Positions 7,855 through 19,244 of a stretch of 21,377 nt of DNA are shown in pieces (position 1 is the first letter of the stretch; each line of letters begins with the position of its first letter). A program made the position numbers and the translations under genes. This stretch comes from a virus. A model generated the notes under the pieces. It searched no databases. It saw only the letters and a program-made list of their open reading frames with translations, and had not been told where the DNA came from. Where the stretch lies: IMG/VR virus record IMGVR_UViG_3300006802_000705, positions 1 to 21,377 of that record; one strand, given 5' to 3'.

Positions 7855-8943
7855 ATGGAATTGAAAGTAAGGTCACTAGATGTAATTGAACCCAAGAGCG
7901 TTCAAGAGGTAGAAAATGAATTAATTGAAAAACATGAAGAGTCTTTAAACTCTGATAATAATTATGAATCAGAAGAAACTCAATTAGAGCAAGAGCCTTC
8001 TAATGAGTTTAATTTTAAAGACGAAGACGTTATTTCATATATTGGTAAAAGATATAATAAGCAGATTAACTCTTTAGATGATTTGGTTGCTGAGAGAAAA
8101 GAATCAGAGCCACTCCCTGAAGATGTATCTGCTTATTTAAAGTATAAAAAAGAAACAGGCAGAGGGTTTGAGGATTTTTTAGAATTGAAGAAAGACTTTG
8201 ATTCAATGAATCCCGACCAACTGCTAAAGCAATATTTAACTTCCACTCAAGAAGGATTGGATAGTGATGATATTGAAGCTTTAATGGAAGATTATTCATA
8301 CGATGAAGATTTGGATGATGAGTCTACCGTTAAGAAAGTTAAGATTGCTAGAAAAAAAATTATTGCTGAGGCTAAGAAATACTTCAACAATCAAAAGGAA
8401 AAATACAGAATCCCGCTTGAGTCAAGTATGGGTTCTATTCCTGATGAAGATAAGGAGTTATACGAAAGCTATAAGCAGTATGTGAGTGAGGCGAAGACTA
8501 TAGAGGAGGAGACGAATCGAAAGCGTAGATGGTTTGACCAAAAAACTGATGAGGTCTTTAGTAAAGACTTTAAAGGATTTGAGTTCAATGTCAACGATAA
8601 GAAAATTTTGTTTGCTCCTGGTGATGCCAATGAGTTAAAGAAAATTCAAGCTACACCTCAGAACTTTGTAAATAAGTTCTTGGATGAAAGTGGAATGATT
8701 AAAGACGCATCGGGATACCATAGGTCATTAGCCATTGCAATGAATCCTGAGAAGTTCGCTAAGTTCTTTTATGAGCAAGGTATGTCAGATGCTACTGACG
8801 ATGTTACTCGTAAAATTAAGAACATCAATATGACGGAGCGTAGAGCTCCTGAATTAGGTAAACCAACAGGAGGAATGCAGGTGAGAGCGGTAAACCCTGA
8901 TTCAGGTAGAAACCTGAAAATACGCAGTGCAAAAAAAATGTAA
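7855..8943 (+). CDS. Putative capsid scaffolding protein
   Basis: This 362-residue, highly charged, mostly helical protein lies between portal and major capsid protein, the classic scaffold position. The first 60 residues are acidic and low-complexity (many Glu, Asn and Ser). A segment at about 57-200 (DVISYIGKRYN, LPEDVSAYLKYKKETGR, then an Asp/Glu-rich helix and KVKIARKKIIAEAKKYF) follows a pattern shared by scaffold-like proteins of large and crAss-like phages. The C-terminus turns basic and flexible (GRNLKIRSAKKM), as expected for a tail that grips capsid subunits during prohead assembly. No protease catalytic motif is evident, so removal of the scaffold would need another protease or exit intact. 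The assignment rests on position and composition. Confidence 0.72.
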   Translation: MELKVRSLDVIEPKSVQEVENELIEKHEESLNSDNNYESEETQLEQEPSNEFNFKDEDVISYIGKRYNKQINSLDDLVAERKESEPLPEDVSAYLKYKKETGRGFEDFLELKKDFDSMNPDQLLKQYLTSTQEGLDSDDIEALMEDYSYDEDLDDESTVKKVKIARKKIIAEAKKYFNNQKEKYRIPLESSMGSIPDEDKELYESYKQYVSEAKTIEEETNRKRRWFDQKTDEVFSKDFKGFEFNVNDKKILFAPGDANELKKIQATPQNFVNKFLDESGMIKDASGYHRSLAIAMNPEKFAKFFYEQGMSDATDDVTRKIKNINMTERRAPELGKPTGGMQVRAVNPDSGRNLKIRSAKKM

Positions 8944-11291: not shown

Positions 11292-12032
11292 ATGATAAAC
11301 TCTGTTAGAAATACGGTACTATCCGTTTTAAACAAGAATAATTACGGCTATATATCCCCATCAGACTTTAACTTGTTTGCCAAGCAGGCTCAGCTAGAAG
11401 TGTTTGACGAATACTTTTCTGAATACAATAAGATTGTCAATATGGAAAATGCTCGTATGGCAGGCACAGATTATGCGGATTTAAACAAGTCTATTGCAGA
11501 AGCCATGGAAACATTTATTACGACTTCAACTTTGACTCAGGTTTCAGTTGCTACTAATAGATTTTTTCTACCTTCTTTGACAACAACAGGCTCAGATTAT
11601 TTTCTTATAAATAAAATACTTTGTTTTGATGCGTCAGTTTCTCCTAGAGTTTATAAAGGAGAAGCTGAAAAAGTTACGCATTCAAAAATAACTTTGCTTG
11701 TAAATTCAAATCTTACTTCTCCTACAGAAACTTATCCTGCATATACGCAAGAAGGTAATTTTATTACTGTTTATCCAGCTACGATAAATTTACCAAACGA
11801 AGTAGACGCTAATTATTTCAGATATCCAAGAGACCCTAAATGGACGTACATTACTTTGTCCAATGGTGAGCCTGTATTTAATCAATCACAACCTGACTAT
11901 CAAGATTTTGAGGTTCCACTAGAAGACGAAATAAAATTAGTTTCAAAGATTCTTCAATATGCAGGAATGTCTATACGTGAGGTTGAGGCAATTCAGTTTG
12001 GTGGTAATGAAGAACAAAAACAATCACAATAA
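11292..12032 (+). CDS. Putative connector/ring virion protein 1
   Basis: This 246-residue protein opens the tail operon. The N-terminal half is helical (NNYGYISPSDFNLFAKQAQL, then EVFDEYFSEYNK). This pattern recurs at the start of structural proteins located after the capsid gene in crAss-like and related phages. A β-rich middle follows (VATNRFFLPSL, FITVYPATI), then the ANYFRYPRDPKWTY stretch and a helical C-terminus (VPLEDEIKLVSKILQYAG) with a Gln/Glu/Lys tail. Such proteins form rings below the portal in podovirus-like tails. The exact ring cannot be assigned. It is followed after 2 bp by a second connector-type gene, implying joint production. Confidence 0.68.
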   Translation: MINSVRNTVLSVLNKNNYGYISPSDFNLFAKQAQLEVFDEYFSEYNKIVNMENARMAGTDYADLNKSIAEAMETFITTSTLTQVSVATNRFFLPSLTTTGSDYFLINKILCFDASVSPRVYKGEAEKVTHSKITLLVNSNLTSPTETYPAYTQEGNFITVYPATINLPNEVDANYFRYPRDPKWTYITLSNGEPVFNQSQPDYQDFEVPLEDEIKLVSKILQYAGMSIREVEAIQFGGNEEQKQSQ

Positions 12033-12959: not shown

Positions 12960-15900
12960 ATGGCAAAGTTTAGCAGAAATTTCACAGCAGGGAGAATGAA
13001 TAAAGTCTATGACGAAAGAGTTGTTCCTGACGGAGAGTATATTGACGCTATGAATATAAGAATGGGTTCTACTGAGAACTCAGAGATAGGTGTTATTGAA
13101 AATACCAAAGGAAATCTCCCTCTAACTTCATTAGCATATATTGATGGCACTCCACTTAGTGCTTCTGCTAAATGTATTGGCGCTATCGAAAACAGTGTTA
13201 CAGAAACACTTTATTGGTTTGTTCACGACCCTGACTTTAGCGTTGGAGCTACAGGAAAGTTGGATTTGATTGTGTCATTTAATGTGAACACAAACATCTT
13301 AACGTATCATGTAATTAGTGTGGATGATGGTGGTGGGGTAAATACTACACTTAATTTTAATTCCAGTTATTTAATTACAGGAGTTGATATTTTGGACAAT
13401 AAGCTTTTGTTTTTTACAGACGACTACAATGCTCCAAGATATATAAATGTTCAAAAAAACTACCCTAACCCTATATCAAACATTGATGGCGTTAGTGCTG
13501 AATCGTTGTTGGTAATAAAAAAACCACCTATTGAATCACCTGCAATTCAGCCTTTTGTTAATAATGGACAAGAGAATTATTTAGAAACTAGGTTTATATC
13601 TTTTGCATACAGATATAAATATGCTGACGGTGAATACAGTGCCACATCTCAGTGGTCTGCTCCTGCATTTATTCCTAAACCTTTCAGTTTTAGTATTGAT
13701 AGTTTTTTGAATGAAGGCATGACAAACTTTTGTAATGCTGCAAAAATATATTACAACTCAGGAGGACCACTTGTGGTTGGCATTGACCTACTATTTAAGA
13801 AGGCTGATGGGAATATAATTAAAGTAATTGAAAAGTTAGACAAGTCTAACTTGGGATTAGTAGATAATACTGTATATGAATATGTATTTACTAACAGTAA
13901 AATTTTTACAATTCTATCTGAGTCTGAATTACTAAGATTGTATGATAATGTTCCTCGTTTTGCTAAAGCTCAAACTATCATGGGTAACCGACTTATGTAC
14001 GGTAACTATGTTGAAGGTTATGATTTAATTGATGGAAACGGAGAACCATTAAAGCTTGAATATACTACTGATTTAATTTCTCAAGATATTGGATTAACAA
14101 ATACAGATACCAATGTACAGTCCAGTAATTATTCTATTGATGGTGCTATAAGCGTCCCTAATTCAATTGTATATATTGACTTAGAGGATAAAGAATTAAA
14201 TGAAGGCTCAGCTTTTAGTCTTGATTTAACTATAGACCATGAACAATTTTCAGGGGATACTCCTTTCCCTGCTGAAACCACTGAGGGAGTTAGATTGAAC
14301 TTTTCATTCTTTCTAACTCGAAGTTACGACTCTGTTTATGCATTAGCTTCTAGTATAGAATTTCAAGATGCAATTGGTACTGCTCTTAATATAGAGATAG
14401 TTGATGACTCTTGTAATGGAGTAACATTTACAGACCAATTTAATTGCGCTGTTCCAAATGATTTATCAACATTTCAAAAGATTGCGAGTGGTATCAGTGC
14501 AGTAAATCAACCTATTGCAATTATTACATCCCCAGCCAGTAATCAAATAGGATTACAGCTTCCTGCGATGAAGTATGTTGATACTCCAACTCAGGAGGTA
14601 TATGAATATTACAGTATATCTTTTTCTCAAGCAACATTTCAAGAAGTAGCAAATACTCAAAGTCTTCATAGTAATAGAGACTATGAGATTGGTATTGTTT
14701 ACATGGATGACTTTAATAGGTCTAGTACCGCTTTAGTTAGCCCTAACAATACTGTCCATATTCCTTGTGGATTATCATCATCTAAGAACTCTATTCAGGT
14801 TAATATACCTATTGAACAAAAACCTCCAGTTTGGGCTACTAGATACAAGTTTGTTATTAAGCCTGATGAAGAGAATTATGAAACAATTTATTGTAACATA
14901 TTTTTTGAGGACCCTGAAAGCAACAATGCTTATTTCTTATTAGAAGGAGAAAACTCTCGTAAAGTTGAGGTTGGTGATAGGCTTATTGTAAAGGCTGATT
15001 CTGAAGGTCCTACTAATAATTGTGTTTATGCTACTGTTCTTGAGAAGTCATCTCAGCCATCAGGGTTTATTGAAATACCAACCGAAGATGACCCTACTGT
15101 ATTAATACCTGTTCCTGCTGGAGTATATGCAAAAATAAATCCTAACAGTTTCAGTATTGTTCGTGAAGAAAATGCAATCATTGCTCCTGGAAAAATAAGT
15201 GTAAAAGAGAAAAGTGGAGGAGAATATCCTATTCTATTTTACCCTATGAACATATTTAATGGTACTACATGGGAAGACTATAATGTTCCTGCAGGAAGTA
15301 GAATTGAAATATCAATAAAACAATTTAGAGCTGGCGAAGGAAGTAGATGTGAAGAAAGAAGAAACACTTTTATAAAAACATTTGTGTCTCCAAATGAATA
15401 CAACAATATGTATGATTGGTTTGTTGGGGAAAATATTGAGCAGTATTTAAATGACGGGATAAAGATTGTTGGAGGAGGTGGTTGTGAGATTCAAAATGAA
15501 TTTATTACAGGAATATCTTCTAGTACAAGTATTCCTACTAGCGTTTGTACTAACTATTATCAATTTTATAGAAATCCATCAACCAATCAACTTCAATTAA
15601 TGGTTACTGGAACCATTTCTTGTGAGGGTGCTGGATTTAAACCAAGAGCTAGAGATTCAAATGTAGAGGTAAACATAGTTGTATTCCGTTCAGATAAGAC
15701 TATTATATTTGAGACTCAGCCATCTGATGCTTTGCCTGATGTTTTCTTTGAGAATGATATGTCATTTGCAATTGTAAATGGAAACCATCAAGGAAATATT
15801 CAGAATCAAGACATTAACTTGGGAGTTCCTGCTATTATTGACACTAAGTTCTTTAACTGCTTTTCATTTGGAAACGGTGCAGAAAGCTATAAGATTCGTG

Positions 15901-17363
15901 ACTCAATAGTTGGTAGTCATTTTAATCTTGGAAATAGAGTAACTAGTGTTTCAGCTCAGGATTACAAGGCTGCTGATAGATTTGCTGACATCACTTATAG
16001 TGGTGTTTATAGTGCAGAATCAAATGTCAATAAGCTAAATGAGTTTAACCTTGGCCTACTTAACTATAAAGTTTGTGAGCCATCGTTTGGGGACATATAT
16101 ATTTTAGATGGCCGTACTACTGATATATTAGTTCTTCAAGAAGATAAAATATCTTATGTGTTAGCTAGCAAGAATCTTATTTCTGATTCGTCAGGTGGCG
16201 GAGTAATTGCTTCTGTTCCTGAAATATTGGGAACTCAAATTGCTAGAACAGAGAAATATGGTATTAGTTATAATCCTGAGAGCTATGTGCATTGGGGATT
16301 CAATAGATTCTTTACAGACGTAAAACGTGGTGCAGTTATTCAACTAGTAGGAGAGTCTTCAGGCAATGACCAACTAGCAGTAATTTCTGAATTAGGTATG
16401 CGTACTTGGTTTAGAGATACATTTAATGAATCTGCAGATACACAAAAGCTTGGAGGGTTTGACCCTTACATGAATGAATATGTGATTTCTACAAATGATA
16501 TAGATATACCATCTAATCCTGAGTGTTTAGCTTGTGGTGTTCTTCAAACATTTACGCTTAGTACATTAGAAGGTCAATCAAAAACATTTGAGTATTGTGT
16601 TGACTTAGGCCCTTTACTTGGCACATCTGATATCGACTATACTGTAAATACAATTAGTGCAGGAGCTTCATTCCAAATAATTGTTAATTATGATGGTACC
16701 ATTTATGATTCAGGATATGTTACAACTAGTGGTAATTTTGTTATTAACAAGGACAATATTTCTGAGGAGACAGCTACTATTACCATAAACTATACTGGGG
16801 ATATTTCATTGTCTATACTTGGTGGATGTACTACTACCAATAGTTTAACTATTGTTCAGGTAGTTGTTACAAATGATTTTGAAGCAGGTCAGAGTATTCA
16901 TACTGAATACAGATACATTAGCGGTGCTTATACAGCTCCATTACAATCATCGTTGACTACGTTCTCAACCTCAACAGATAACCCGTTAGTATCAAGATAT
17001 AGCCTTCTTACAGGTCCTGTTGGTTCAGGAGCATTCCCTCCTTCAGGAAGTACACTTAGAATAATTTCTAATAAACTTGCTACAGATACATTTGTATTTA
17101 ATCCTGCTATTGATAAATTTAAATATTTGACATCAAATACATTGTATTCGAATAATGATTTAGATATTACTACGTTGCTGGGATTAGCTAGTACAGCTTC
17201 TCCAAATCAAGGTGGTGGTACTAATAATTATGCTGAGTTTACAGTCCCTGTTTTACAGAATTATCTGTATCTTATTTGGGACTTTAGAGATTCTTTACCT
17301 ATAACATTATGTTACTCTACTTTAAGTACAACAAATGCTTGCTGTGGATGCGAAGTAGTTTAA
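12960..17363 (+). CDS. Giant tail hub / stabilisation ('muzzle'-type) protein
   Basis: At 1467 residues this is the largest gene here. The N-terminus FTAGRMNKVYDERVVPDGEY (7-26), followed by DAMNIRMGS and IGVIEN, is the hallmark opening of tail-tip stabilisation proteins of podovirus-like and crAss-like phages. A long β-propeller/sandwich-like body follows, interrupted by Ig-like β regions. The conserved segment at about 1050-1180 (LVLQEDKISYVLA, YVHWGFNRFFTDVKRGAVIQ, MRTWFRDTFNE, GGFDPYMNEYVIS) normally lies near the end of this family. Here about 285 more residues continue as Thr/Ser-rich β domains, ending in a cysteine cluster (CYSTLSTTNACCGCEVV). The protein probably seals the tail channel and carries adhesin-like domains. 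No signal peptide is present, as expected for a virion protein. Confidence 0.82.
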   Translation: MAKFSRNFTAGRMNKVYDERVVPDGEYIDAMNIRMGSTENSEIGVIENTKGNLPLTSLAYIDGTPLSASAKCIGAIENSVTETLYWFVHDPDFSVGATGKLDLIVSFNVNTNILTYHVISVDDGGGVNTTLNFNSSYLITGVDILDNKLLFFTDDYNAPRYINVQKNYPNPISNIDGVSAESLLVIKKPPIESPAIQPFVNNGQENYLETRFISFAYRYKYADGEYSATSQWSAPAFIPKPFSFSIDSFLNEGMTNFCNAAKIYYNSGGPLVVGIDLLFKKADGNIIKVIEKLDKSNLGLVDNTVYEYVFTNSKIFTILSESELLRLYDNVPRFAKAQTIMGNRLMYGNYVEGYDLIDGNGEPLKLEYTTDLISQDIGLTNTDTNVQSSNYSIDGAISVPNSIVYIDLEDKELNEGSAFSLDLTIDHEQFSGDTPFPAETTEGVRLNFSFFLTRSYDSVYALASSIEFQDAIGTALNIEIVDDSCNGVTFTDQFNCAVPNDLSTFQKIASGISAVNQPIAIITSPASNQIGLQLPAMKYVDTPTQEVYEYYSISFSQATFQEVANTQSLHSNRDYEIGIVYMDDFNRSSTALVSPNNTVHIPCGLSSSKNSIQVNIPIEQKPPVWATRYKFVIKPDEENYETIYCNIFFEDPESNNAYFLLEGENSRKVEVGDRLIVKADSEGPTNNCVYATVLEKSSQPSGFIEIPTEDDPTVLIPVPAGVYAKINPNSFSIVREENAIIAPGKISVKEKSGGEYPILFYPMNIFNGTTWEDYNVPAGSRIEISIKQFRAGEGSRCEERRNTFIKTFVSPNEYNNMYDWFVGENIEQYLNDGIKIVGGGGCEIQNEFITGISSSTSIPTSVCTNYYQFYRNPSTNQLQLMVTGTISCEGAGFKPRARDSNVEVNIVVFRSDKTIIFETQPSDALPDVFFENDMSFAIVNGNHQGNIQNQDINLGVPAIIDTKFFNCFSFGNGAESYKIRDSIVGSHFNLGNRVTSVSAQDYKAADRFADITYSGVYSAESNVNKLNEFNLGLLNYKVCEPSFGDIYILDGRTTDILVLQEDKISYVLASKNLISDSSGGGVIASVPEILGTQIARTEKYGISYNPESYVHWGFNRFFTDVKRGAVIQLVGESSGNDQLAVISELGMRTWFRDTFNESADTQKLGGFDPYMNEYVISTNDIDIPSNPECLACGVLQTFTLSTLEGQSKTFEYCVDLGPLLGTSDIDYTVNTISAGASFQIIVNYDGTIYDSGYVTTSGNFVINKDNISEETATITINYTGDISLSILGGCTTTNSLTIVQVVVTNDFEAGQSIHTEYRYISGAYTAPLQSSLTTFSTSTDNPLVSRYSLLTGPVGSGAFPPSGSTLRIISNKLATDTFVFNPAIDKFKYLTSNTLYSNNDLDITTLLGLASTASPNQGGGTNNYAEFTVPVLQNYLYLIWDFRDSLPITLCYSTLSTTNACCGCEVV

Positions 17364-17375
17364 AATAAAAAAAAA

Positions 17376-17999
17376 ATGGCTGTAAGTTCAACATATTATT
17401 TAAATGGTCCATCATTAGGCTCTGCTACGGCTGTGTTTTTAAATGAAGCCTTAACTGTTTGTGCACCTAATGGATTTTACTCAGATGGTGTAATAGTAAG
17501 AGAGCTAGTTGGATGTGTATTATTGCCTCAGCAAACTTGTCCTTCATGTGGTTCTACAGAGTCTTATAATTGCGTAAGTGGAACCTGTGTCGACCCTGGG
17601 GATGGTAGCGGAATATATTCAACATTAGCTGCTTGTGAATCCGCTTGTGGTGGTCCTCCTGTTGAGTTGAATGTTATAGCTGTAGGTGGCTACATGGAGC
17701 CATGCACAGGAGGTTCAATCGATGACTACATGGGTGCGGTGATTTCTCTTGATGGAATTGTAGATGTAGATACTACATTTGAAGTAGAAGTTTACTATGT
17801 AGAAACAGGAGGTACTTGTGGGGGAACTCAGTTCTTTGAAACATTGAATGTTGTTGTTCCTAATGGAAGTGATTTATCTAACTTTAATGCTTGTTCTCAA
17901 GGTGTTTATTTCCCTTCAGGTGCTGTAATATGCAGTGCTTGCATAGTAAGCTGTGACAATCCAAACGTAATAATTGGAGCATTTGAATGCCCATCATAA
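17376..17999 (+). CDS. Cysteine-rich β protein of the tail module
   Basis: This 207-residue protein carries 15 cysteines, extraordinary beside its cysteine-poor neighbours. It begins with a strand-rich unit (YYLNGPSLGSATAVF, FYSDGVIVRELVGCVLLPQQ) ending in CPSC. A compact motif of the form C-x4-C-VDPGDGSG-x7-C-x3-C follows, recalling small disulfide-knotted modules seen in metagenomic Bacteroidota phage proteins. The second half (from about residue 97) is a β domain with four more spaced cysteines and the ICSACIVSC cluster. There is no signal peptide. It starts 12 bp after the giant tail gene, whose own C-terminus is also Cys-rich. A disulfide- or metal-stabilised accessory tail adhesin is inferred. 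I know no proven function for this family. Confidence 0.8.
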   Translation: MAVSSTYYLNGPSLGSATAVFLNEALTVCAPNGFYSDGVIVRELVGCVLLPQQTCPSCGSTESYNCVSGTCVDPGDGSGIYSTLAACESACGGPPVELNVIAVGGYMEPCTGGSIDDYMGAVISLDGIVDVDTTFEVEVYYVETGGTCGGTQFFETLNVVVPNGSDLSNFNACSQGVYFPSGAVICSACIVSCDNPNVIIGAFECPS

Positions 18000-18005
18000 A
18001 ATAAT

Positions 18006-18812
18006 ATGGCAAACTACACACTAACATATAGCGAAGGGGCCCCTGGTTGGGTATCTTTTTATTCTTATTATCCTGATTGGATGATAGGAATGAACAATTA
18101 TTTCTACACATTTAAAGGAGGAGATTTATATCGGCATAATGTAAACCAAGAAAGAAATACATTTTATACTCCATGGCAAGTAAAGAATGGTACGCCTAAT
18201 GCTGATTTTACTCCAACTAGAATGAGAAGTGTATTTAATGCTTCTGTTTTAGAGAACAAAGTATTTAAGACAATAGACCTTCAGGGAGATGCTCCTTGGT
18301 CTATTACCTTAGCTACAGATATACAAACATCAGGATTTATTCAACAAAATTGGTTTGAGAAAAAAGAAGCAACCTACTTTGCTTTTGTTAGGAATAATTC
18401 TGTAGGAGAGTTATTTCTAAGAAGCGTAAATGGAATTGCGACAAGTAGTGAAGTAGTTGGAGGTAATGTAATTAAATTTCCTTTAACCATATCTATTGGA
18501 AGTATCATAAGTGTTGGAGACCTTCTTTATTTTTCTCTGCCACCTTCTTATGGTAGCCCCATATTAGCTGGTCGAGTTACCGCCATAGATGTAGACCTGC
18601 CTAATAATATTAATCAATTAACAATTGATACAACTATAAGCGGGACTACTCCAATACCTATTCAAGATGCTTTTATATTTTATGTTAAAAATTCAGTAGC
18701 AGAATCTCACGGAGTTCTTGGTCACTACTGTGTATTTGATATGGAAAATGATTATACAGAAAAAATAGAACTGTATGCTGTTGAATCTGATGTAATGAAA
18801 AGTTTCCCTTAA
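18006..18812 (+). CDS. Separately encoded tail-end domain of the stabilisation/muzzle complex
   Basis: This 268-residue β-rich protein contains GAPGWVSFYSYYPDWMIGMN (11-30), then YFYTFKGGDLYRHN. In related phages that signature usually occurs inside the C-terminal part of the large stabilisation protein, as recalled family knowledge. Its own end (HGVLGHYCVFDMEND, then KIELYAVESDVMKSFP) also matches how those large proteins finish. Between them (about 155-225) lies a small β-barrel-like unit (ISVGDLLYF, AGRVTAIDVDLP, QLTIDTTISG) resembling the inserted unit in the capsid protein. The domain has apparently been split off as its own gene, with the Cys-rich gene between it and the giant protein. 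It starts 6 bp after that gene and probably assembles with it. Confidence 0.68.
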   Translation: MANYTLTYSEGAPGWVSFYSYYPDWMIGMNNYFYTFKGGDLYRHNVNQERNTFYTPWQVKNGTPNADFTPTRMRSVFNASVLENKVFKTIDLQGDAPWSITLATDIQTSGFIQQNWFEKKEATYFAFVRNNSVGELFLRSVNGIATSSEVVGGNVIKFPLTISIGSIISVGDLLYFSLPPSYGSPILAGRVTAIDVDLPNNINQLTIDTTISGTTPIPIQDAFIFYVKNSVAESHGVLGHYCVFDMENDYTEKIELYAVESDVMKSFP

Positions 18813-18833: not shown

Positions 18834-19244
18834 ATGGCACTAACAATACGAGAGTTAAACGAAACAGATTACGAAGACATTCTTGTAGAATGGTGGGGAC
18901 AATGGGGATGGGAGCCACCACAAAAGGACTTCCTTCCTAACGATGGCAAAGGTGGAATCATAGTTTATGACGGTGATGTCCCAATTTGTGCAGGATATAT
19001 GTATCTTACTAATTCAAAAGTAGGATGGGTAGATTGGATTATATCTAATAAGTATTATACCAAGAAAGAACTAAGGAAATACGCACTTGAATTATTGGTA
19101 TCTAGACTAACTGAAATATGCGGATTAATTGGATGCAAGTATGTGTATGCACTTATTAAGAATCAAAGTTTAATAAAAACGTATGAGGAACTTGGATATA
19201 TCAAAGGTGACTCATATACATCTGAAATGATAAAAGTATTATAA
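18834..19244 (+). CDS. Divergent GNAT-type acetyltransferase
   Basis: This 136-residue protein has the GNAT fold order. It starts with IRELNETDYEDI, has a Trp-rich stretch (EWWGQWGWEPP), β-strands IIVYDGDVPICAGYMYL, the central strand VGWVDWIISNKYY, a following helix (RKYALELLVSRLTEIC), then YVYALIKNQSLIKTYEELGY and a C-terminal EMIKVL strand. The usual acetyl-CoA pyrophosphate loop R/Q-x-x-G-x-G/A between strand 4 and helix 3 is replaced by YTKKELRKYA, so cofactor binding may be altered. Trp-rich GNAT proteins of this form recur in structural regions of Bacteroidota phages. Possible roles include acetylation of a virion or host protein, or a non-catalytic role. It lies 1 bp upstream of an internal-protein gene, which suggests a link with that module. 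Confidence 0.78.
   Translation: MALTIRELNETDYEDILVEWWGQWGWEPPQKDFLPNDGKGGIIVYDGDVPICAGYMYLTNSKVGWVDWIISNKYYTKKELRKYALELLVSRLTEICGLIGCKYVYALIKNQSLIKTYEELGYIKGDSYTSEMIKVL

Follow-up and report, generated by a model that had tools for sequence, protein, structure and literature searches.

What a protein of 207 residues with 15 cysteines contributes to the particle of a crAss-type phage is the question raised by the open reading frame at positions 17376-17999 (plus strand, ATG to TAA) of the window, the whole 21,377-base virus contig analysed here, which carries crAss-type structural genes. The cysteines of this ORF, referred to below as the cassette, are found at residues 29, 47, 55, 58, 66, 71, 87, 91, 110, 148, 173, 186, 189, 193 and 205, and represent 7.2% of the protein (15/207) versus 0.69% (47/6791) in the 20 other ORFs of the window (Fisher p = 1.9e-10). 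The initial annotation had described the surrounding operon as otherwise cysteine-poor, which is correct for the overall value, but 21 of these 47 cysteines belong to a single protein, the 1467-residue product of the preceding gene. The clusters singled out at the time (CPSC, C-x4-C at 66-71, C-x3-C at 87-91, and ICSACIVSC) are all present in the cassette, as is the ACCGC motif of the preceding protein, which ends in ...NACCGCEVV with the motif 3 residues before the terminus. An artefactual reading frame as the source of the cysteines is ruled out, since frame and cysteines are kept in homologues. Their spacing, named beforehand as the feature by which the idea of a cross-linked tail protein could be refuted, is conserved.

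The neighbouring genes place the cassette at the tip of the tail, as had been proposed. The upstream protein (12960-17363, plus strand, 1467 aa) matches PF25731 (crAss_MUZ, 44.2 bits, cut-off 27) and phrog_14478, and the downstream protein (18006-18812, plus strand, 268 aa) matches PF25729 (crAss_MUZ_C, 47.8 bits, cut-off 27), so that both flanking proteins exceed the curated Pfam cut-offs for the crAss-type muzzle. In the cryo-EM description of phiCrAss001, the muzzle closes the phage tail, its distal part probably touches the cell surface, and differences in its length arise from insertions in its crass and IG2 domains (PMC10172136). The cassette itself (P0001) has no Pfam family at E up to 1 and chance-level matches only in PHROGs; it is unmatched by the muzzle Pfam models and shows no BACON domain (Pfam, E up to 1). 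It is counted with the muzzle by position, and by the fusions described below, only.

Comparison with related phages locates the site where the muzzle is interrupted. The phiCrAss001 protein gp44, of the same tail-tip family (Pfam crAss_MUZ and crAss_MUZ_C), is one chain of 1371 residues with 10 cysteines, whereas the window muzzle is encoded by two genes, separated by a mosaic gene rich in cysteines. The split corresponds to approximately residues 1185-1200 of gp44, just before its crAss_MUZ_C domain (1244-1333); PDB sequence searches with either muzzle protein, as single sequence or as profile, gave no credible match, so that this position rests on weak BLAST alignments. Thus defined, the cassette site, just before the C-terminal domain, differs from the insertion places in the crass and IG2 domains described for gp44 (PMC10172136). 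In the unbroken muzzle of Flavobacterium phage elemoF_6-3D, the upstream window protein aligns to residue 1238 and the downstream protein from residue 1260. About 20 residues there therefore take the place of some 290 muzzle residues (1177-1467, encoded at 16488-17360, plus strand) and of the 207-residue ORF here. Cellulophaga phage phi13:2 (Baltivirus, Pachyviridae) has its muzzle in two ORFs broken at the matching place, gp120 and gp121, whose annotation as structural proteins derives in both cases from similarity to phi8:3. Unlike the window, it has no separate cassette ORF (3-base gap) and only 9 cysteines in 1613 residues. The end of gp120 consists of an Ig/cadherin-like domain (Big_9/cadherin-like, PF17963, E 2e-20) followed by a CSAGITASG-type stretch that, judged by eye, is similar to the CGxxIxASG domain seen in other cassette alleles. 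Extra domains at the split in both phi13:2 and the cassette phages suggest that this site is a repeated landing place for added domains. A tRNA-Cys gene is annotated in phi13:2 shortly downstream of the muzzle genes (8256-8327 of locus L064); no tRNA gene was detected in the window or in 11 related loci.

Three parts can be distinguished within the cassette. Domain 1 (residues 1-58; 17376-17549, plus strand; 94 distinct copies) is the ORF-initial copy of a repeated FYSDG unit, with the co-varying pair C29/C47 and a closing C55-P-S-C58. It is followed by module 2 (residues 64-92; 17565-17651, plus strand), of pattern C-x4-C-x15-C-x3-C, which is also found in Flavobacteriales proteins, and by domain 3 (residues 93-207; 17652-17996, plus strand), predicted to be all-beta and weakly Ig/Calx-beta-like, with 7 conserved cysteines. 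A protein search with the whole cassette found 61 distinct viral loci, the closest (L002) at 83% identity and also with 15 cysteines, and the alignment of residues 1-58 confirmed 472 relatives, of which 80 were kept. In a scan independent of the cassette, with the C-terminal muzzle protein as query (at least 518 relatives, 80 kept), all 79 readable loci had domain 1 between the muzzle genes, 77 of them as a separate ORF and 2 fused to the muzzle; the remaining kept locus had no upstream muzzle gene in its contig. The same arrangement holds across 91 distinct loci with the C-terminal muzzle gene, the exceptions being phi13:2 with its 3-base gap and elemoF_6-3D with its unbroken ORF. Among 50,697 annotated phage records there was one match, to the uncultured podovirus MW202828 from Manatee Spring (cassette residues 1-68), and none to a cultured phage. 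This virus has the same gene order and a 183-residue ORF whose domain 1 is 46% identical, but the C-terminal part differs from that of the window cassette and the ORF has 5 cysteines; its annotation as "putative glycosidase" finds no support in Pfam. MW202828, Baltivirus (Pachyviridae) and Elemovirus are the nearest annotated relatives of the window phage, a relationship seen through the muzzle.

Two further observations concern the muzzle proteins themselves. The C-terminal protein (18006-18812) has a lone cysteine (GHYC) in 113 of 126 distinct sequences, mostly without an intramolecular partner, and alanine there in 10. A disulfide between this protein and the cassette was discarded as a firm claim, 13 of the 126 being without the lone cysteine and the phages checked among them keeping a cassette with a terminal cysteine. 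In one locus (L014, 2101-6538) the N-terminal protein is spread over four ORFs and is intact in near relatives, probably because of assembly or sequencing errors.

Behind the conserved 58 residues of domain 1, the C-termini of cassettes are often non-homologous. Across 79 ORFs, cassette length ranges from 81 to 634 residues and cysteine content from 1.6 to 8.4% (median 3.4%). Between the window and locus L016, for example, the N-terminal muzzle protein is 80% identical, the C-terminal one 86% and domain 1 88%, and the rest of the cassette has no match; such swaps are seen between phages with muzzle proteins 78-95% alike. The interchangeable pieces following domain 1 are module 2 (in several copies in the L013 cassette), the seven-cysteine domain 3 (found in 7 loci by a dedicated scan), the CGxxIxASG domain, and further domain-1 units. 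In locus L092, a truncated domain-1 ORF of 83 residues between the muzzle genes is followed by a cysteine-free ORF of 579 residues starting MANVKISQLGSA, which gives the impression that another tail gene has entered the cassette. By these alignments, the cassette gene occupies the point where the muzzle is divided into its N- and C-terminal proteins, with domain 1 conserved, the remainder shuffled and the cysteines conserved within each module.

Module 2 also occurs in 28 bacterial contigs, nearly all from metagenome-assembled genomes of Flavobacteriales or other Bacteroidota; one is labelled Euryarchaeota and may be a mislabelled bin. A T9SS type A sorting domain was detected in 11 of the 28 proteins with NCBIfam and in 11 with Pfam, and Omp28 in 3, and several of the remaining ones have, on visual inspection, the appearance of signal-peptide proteins or lipoproteins. 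The extracytoplasmic nature of these proteins favours disulfides. Kunitz/BPTI domains have six cysteines forming three disulfides; homology of module 2 to them was rejected, as it has four cysteines and its only match of this kind is a weak one to Ixolaris (phmmer, E 0.16).

The cysteines of the cassette behave as expected for disulfides. Both C29 and C47 are present in 53 and both absent in 38 of the 91 complete distinct copies of domain 1, with no mixed case (the other 3 of the 94 have gaps at both columns). The patterns used to scan for domain-1 relatives lacked these two columns, and one pattern of the first cassette protein search included C29. Mapped on trees of the C-terminal (86 rows) and N-terminal (80 rows) muzzle proteins, C29 and C47 undergo 9 changes each, always together, although whole-domain recombination could move them jointly and the 9 concerted changes may therefore be fewer true events. 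With well-supported branches only, independent pairs agree in 3/3 cases on the former tree (p 0.25) and in 6/6 on the latter (p 0.031). Such pairwise gain and loss fits the disulfide-type cross-linking initially proposed. Module 2 has its full set of four cysteines in 93 of the 99 distinct viral copies and in 44 of the 51 distinct host copies; the one column missing in the others (6/99 and 7/51, respectively) always lies at one end of the matched stretch, which probably reflects alignment ends. All 7 cysteines of domain 3 are kept in the 8 rows of the alignment that cover it (by eye). Taken from these sequence patterns, the cysteines of the cassette modules are probably paired as disulfides, and since 15 is an odd number, at least one must be unpaired, inter-chain or metal-bound. 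The premise of the initial annotation that disulfides are rare in phage structural proteins is weakened for the crAss group by phiCrAss001, in whose cryo-EM description disulfides stabilise the tail barrel, the fibre hubs and a portal-vertex protein (PMC10172136). A phage-encoded thioredoxin was considered as oxidant and rejected: the PF00085 family, the only one searched, was detected in 0 of 20 related records, with 13 of 14 controls positive, so that oxidation would depend on the host or the medium.

The position of individual cysteines also points to a connection between the cassette and the tail of the preceding muzzle protein (CYSTLSTTNACCGCEVV, 17310-17363, plus strand), which contains four cysteines. 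The link that had been drawn between this ACCGC-type tail and the cassette is found realised in other phages: in 16 distinct muzzle proteins, domain 1 is fused directly behind the CCxC tail, and 15 of these 16 copies have a start cysteine and a closing CxxC. Among 92 internal copies of the unit located elsewhere than behind CCxC, 86 have one start cysteine and one closing cysteine. The start cysteine is absent from all 118 ORF-initial copies (0/118), which close with CxxC in 109 cases and with a single cysteine in 9 (counted with corrected ORF starts; 9 copies had no YY landmark). CxxC thus marks the copy adjoining the muzzle tail, be it part of that chain or encoded by the next gene. Furthermore, a cysteine is found within the last 6 residues in 45 of 48 mutually dissimilar clusters of cassette tails (11.5 expected) and in 29 of 31 clusters of muzzle tails, compared to 0 of 587 control proteins (homologues of eight other window genes). 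The simplest reading of fused and split forms with the same set of cysteines is that muzzle tail and domain 1 represent one disulfide-linked knot made as two chains. The CCxC tail of the muzzle would then lie against the CxxC of the cassette as in the fused versions, with at least one disulfide tying the two chains together. Of the steps of the mechanism proposed here this is the least certain, and we would place its chances somewhat short of even. More tentatively still, the muzzle gene may have been cut beside a cysteine-closed domain, with its chain providing the "start" cysteine and the next gene the "closing" one; a disulfide arising after assembly or after lysis would then restore a single covalent object. 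An alternative pairing may fit as well, with C55 bonded to C58 and the four tail cysteines among themselves, or with a shared metal site.

This last possibility can be extended to a general alternative, in which the CCxC tail and CxxC, perhaps with ICSAC..C of domain 3, act as ligands of zinc or an iron-sulfur cluster while in the reducing cytoplasm and form an inter-subunit assembly site. CxxC and CCxC spacings suit metal sites, the two motifs adjoin in both fused and split forms, and assembly in a reducing cell together with the odd number of cysteines would be accounted for. Nevertheless, we consider a metal site unlikely: P0001 has no match to a metal-binding family in Pfam or PHROGs, C29 and C47 change as a pair independently of the other cysteines, internal units with just two cysteines, at start and close, fit disulfides better than a four-ligand site, and module 2 is common to exported proteins.

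Structure prediction gave some indication of what the variable parts may be. The AlphaFold model of the window cassette (35-row alignment) has a mean pLDDT of 83.9 and a pTM of only 0.53, and consists of three parts; domain 3 forms an all-beta sandwich with weak likeness to Ig/Calx-beta folds (best Z 5.4, 82 aligned residues, rmsd 3.6). Foldseek with this model gave nothing at E <= 0.001 against the PDB and 7 matches without usable names in a viral library. The alternative allele of locus L019 is modelled confidently as a beta sandwich (residues 60-220) resembling collagenase collagen-binding/PPC, GOLD and CUB domains (Z up to 10.3; Z 10.0, rmsd 2.3 and 91 aligned residues for the ColG domain); Foldseek with this model also gave nothing at E <= 0.001. 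Folds of the collagen-binding, GOLD and CUB type often bind surfaces, but function does not follow from fold.

The explanation we consider best, and moderately probable, is that the cassette is an interchangeable, disulfide-stapled, surface-binding decoration of the muzzle, possibly rejoined covalently to it. Its modules would be closed by disulfides on exposure of the particle to an oxidising environment, as in the secreted module 2 proteins, and such closure would make small modules independent of their neighbours and hence easy to swap. Exposed on the tail tip, the cassette would bind a host surface molecule, and its ends would turn over as receptors change. A role in host receptor binding may be proposed from position, mosaicism and fold resemblance only. 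The initial interpretation is partly upheld by this outcome, having missed the mosaicism of the cassette and the fact that module 2 is common to secreted bacterial proteins.

A purely structural function, i.e. a stiffening spacer between the muzzle halves with no role in host recognition and with variability due to relaxed constraint, would account for the fixed position and for domain 1 being conserved in 79/79 readable loci, and elemoF_6-3D manages with a linker of about 20 residues at the split site. It appears rather improbable, however, given that the variable parts are made of intact modules that look folded and keep their cysteines, and not of decaying sequence, that at least one of them is common to secreted host proteins, and that swaps occur between phages with 78-95% alike muzzle proteins. 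A secreted or moron-type effector encoded among virion genes and acting outside the particle, an idea to which the resemblance of module 2 to secreted bacterial proteins might lend itself, is very improbable, as no signal peptide is apparent by eye at the N-terminus (MAVSSTYYLNG) and 16 distinct proteins carry domain 1 in frame with the muzzle sequence.

Several other genes of the window deserve mention. A GNAT-like ORF (18834-19244) between the C-terminal muzzle gene and the next structural gene is unusually conserved for the operon: it is 96-99% identical in some relatives, against only 72-86% for the muzzle proteins of the same phages. The product of the gene at 11292-12032 has counterparts of 313-318 residues in many relatives, with only its C-terminal half (residues 124-244) or its N-terminal half matching, which suggests that this neighbouring virion gene also contains a swap point. 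At the start of the contig, an open fibre-like ORF (2-688) carries a C-terminal Peptidase_S74 (endosialidase-type chaperone) domain, and the ORF at 2389-2865 has a weak match to 2OG-Fe(II) oxygenases (22.3 bits, below the cut-off of 27).

Tail-associated proteins with shuffled domains have a precedent in crAssphage, in which BACON tandem repeats, of a bacterial extracellular type, are shuffled or duplicated in a tail-associated protein for which host binding has been proposed (PMC6949934). The cassette differs from the repeats described there in having no BACON match and in its small, cysteine-closed domains at the muzzle split. By analogy, it may be viewed as a modular tail adhesin of the same general kind, the new elements being the muzzle-split site, the closure by cysteines and the predicted covalent bridge. 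In the open-licence literature found, no description of the cassette was encountered, nor is the receptor-binding part of these aquatic crAss-like phages described. If muzzle and cassette are indeed rejoined by a disulfide, the tail tip could be re-equipped by the swap of one small gene, without rebuilding of the 1467-residue muzzle protein, and every exchangeable part would have a cysteine of its own at its end. The cassette would present a case of domains common to T9SS-exported bacterial proteins being displayed on a phage tail, and it predicts inter-chain disulfides in a tail tip that is built inside a reducing cell. The cassette is thereby put forward as a specific and testable candidate for the host-recognition locus of widespread aquatic crAss-like phages, of which at least 518 are represented by relatives of the C-terminal muzzle protein.
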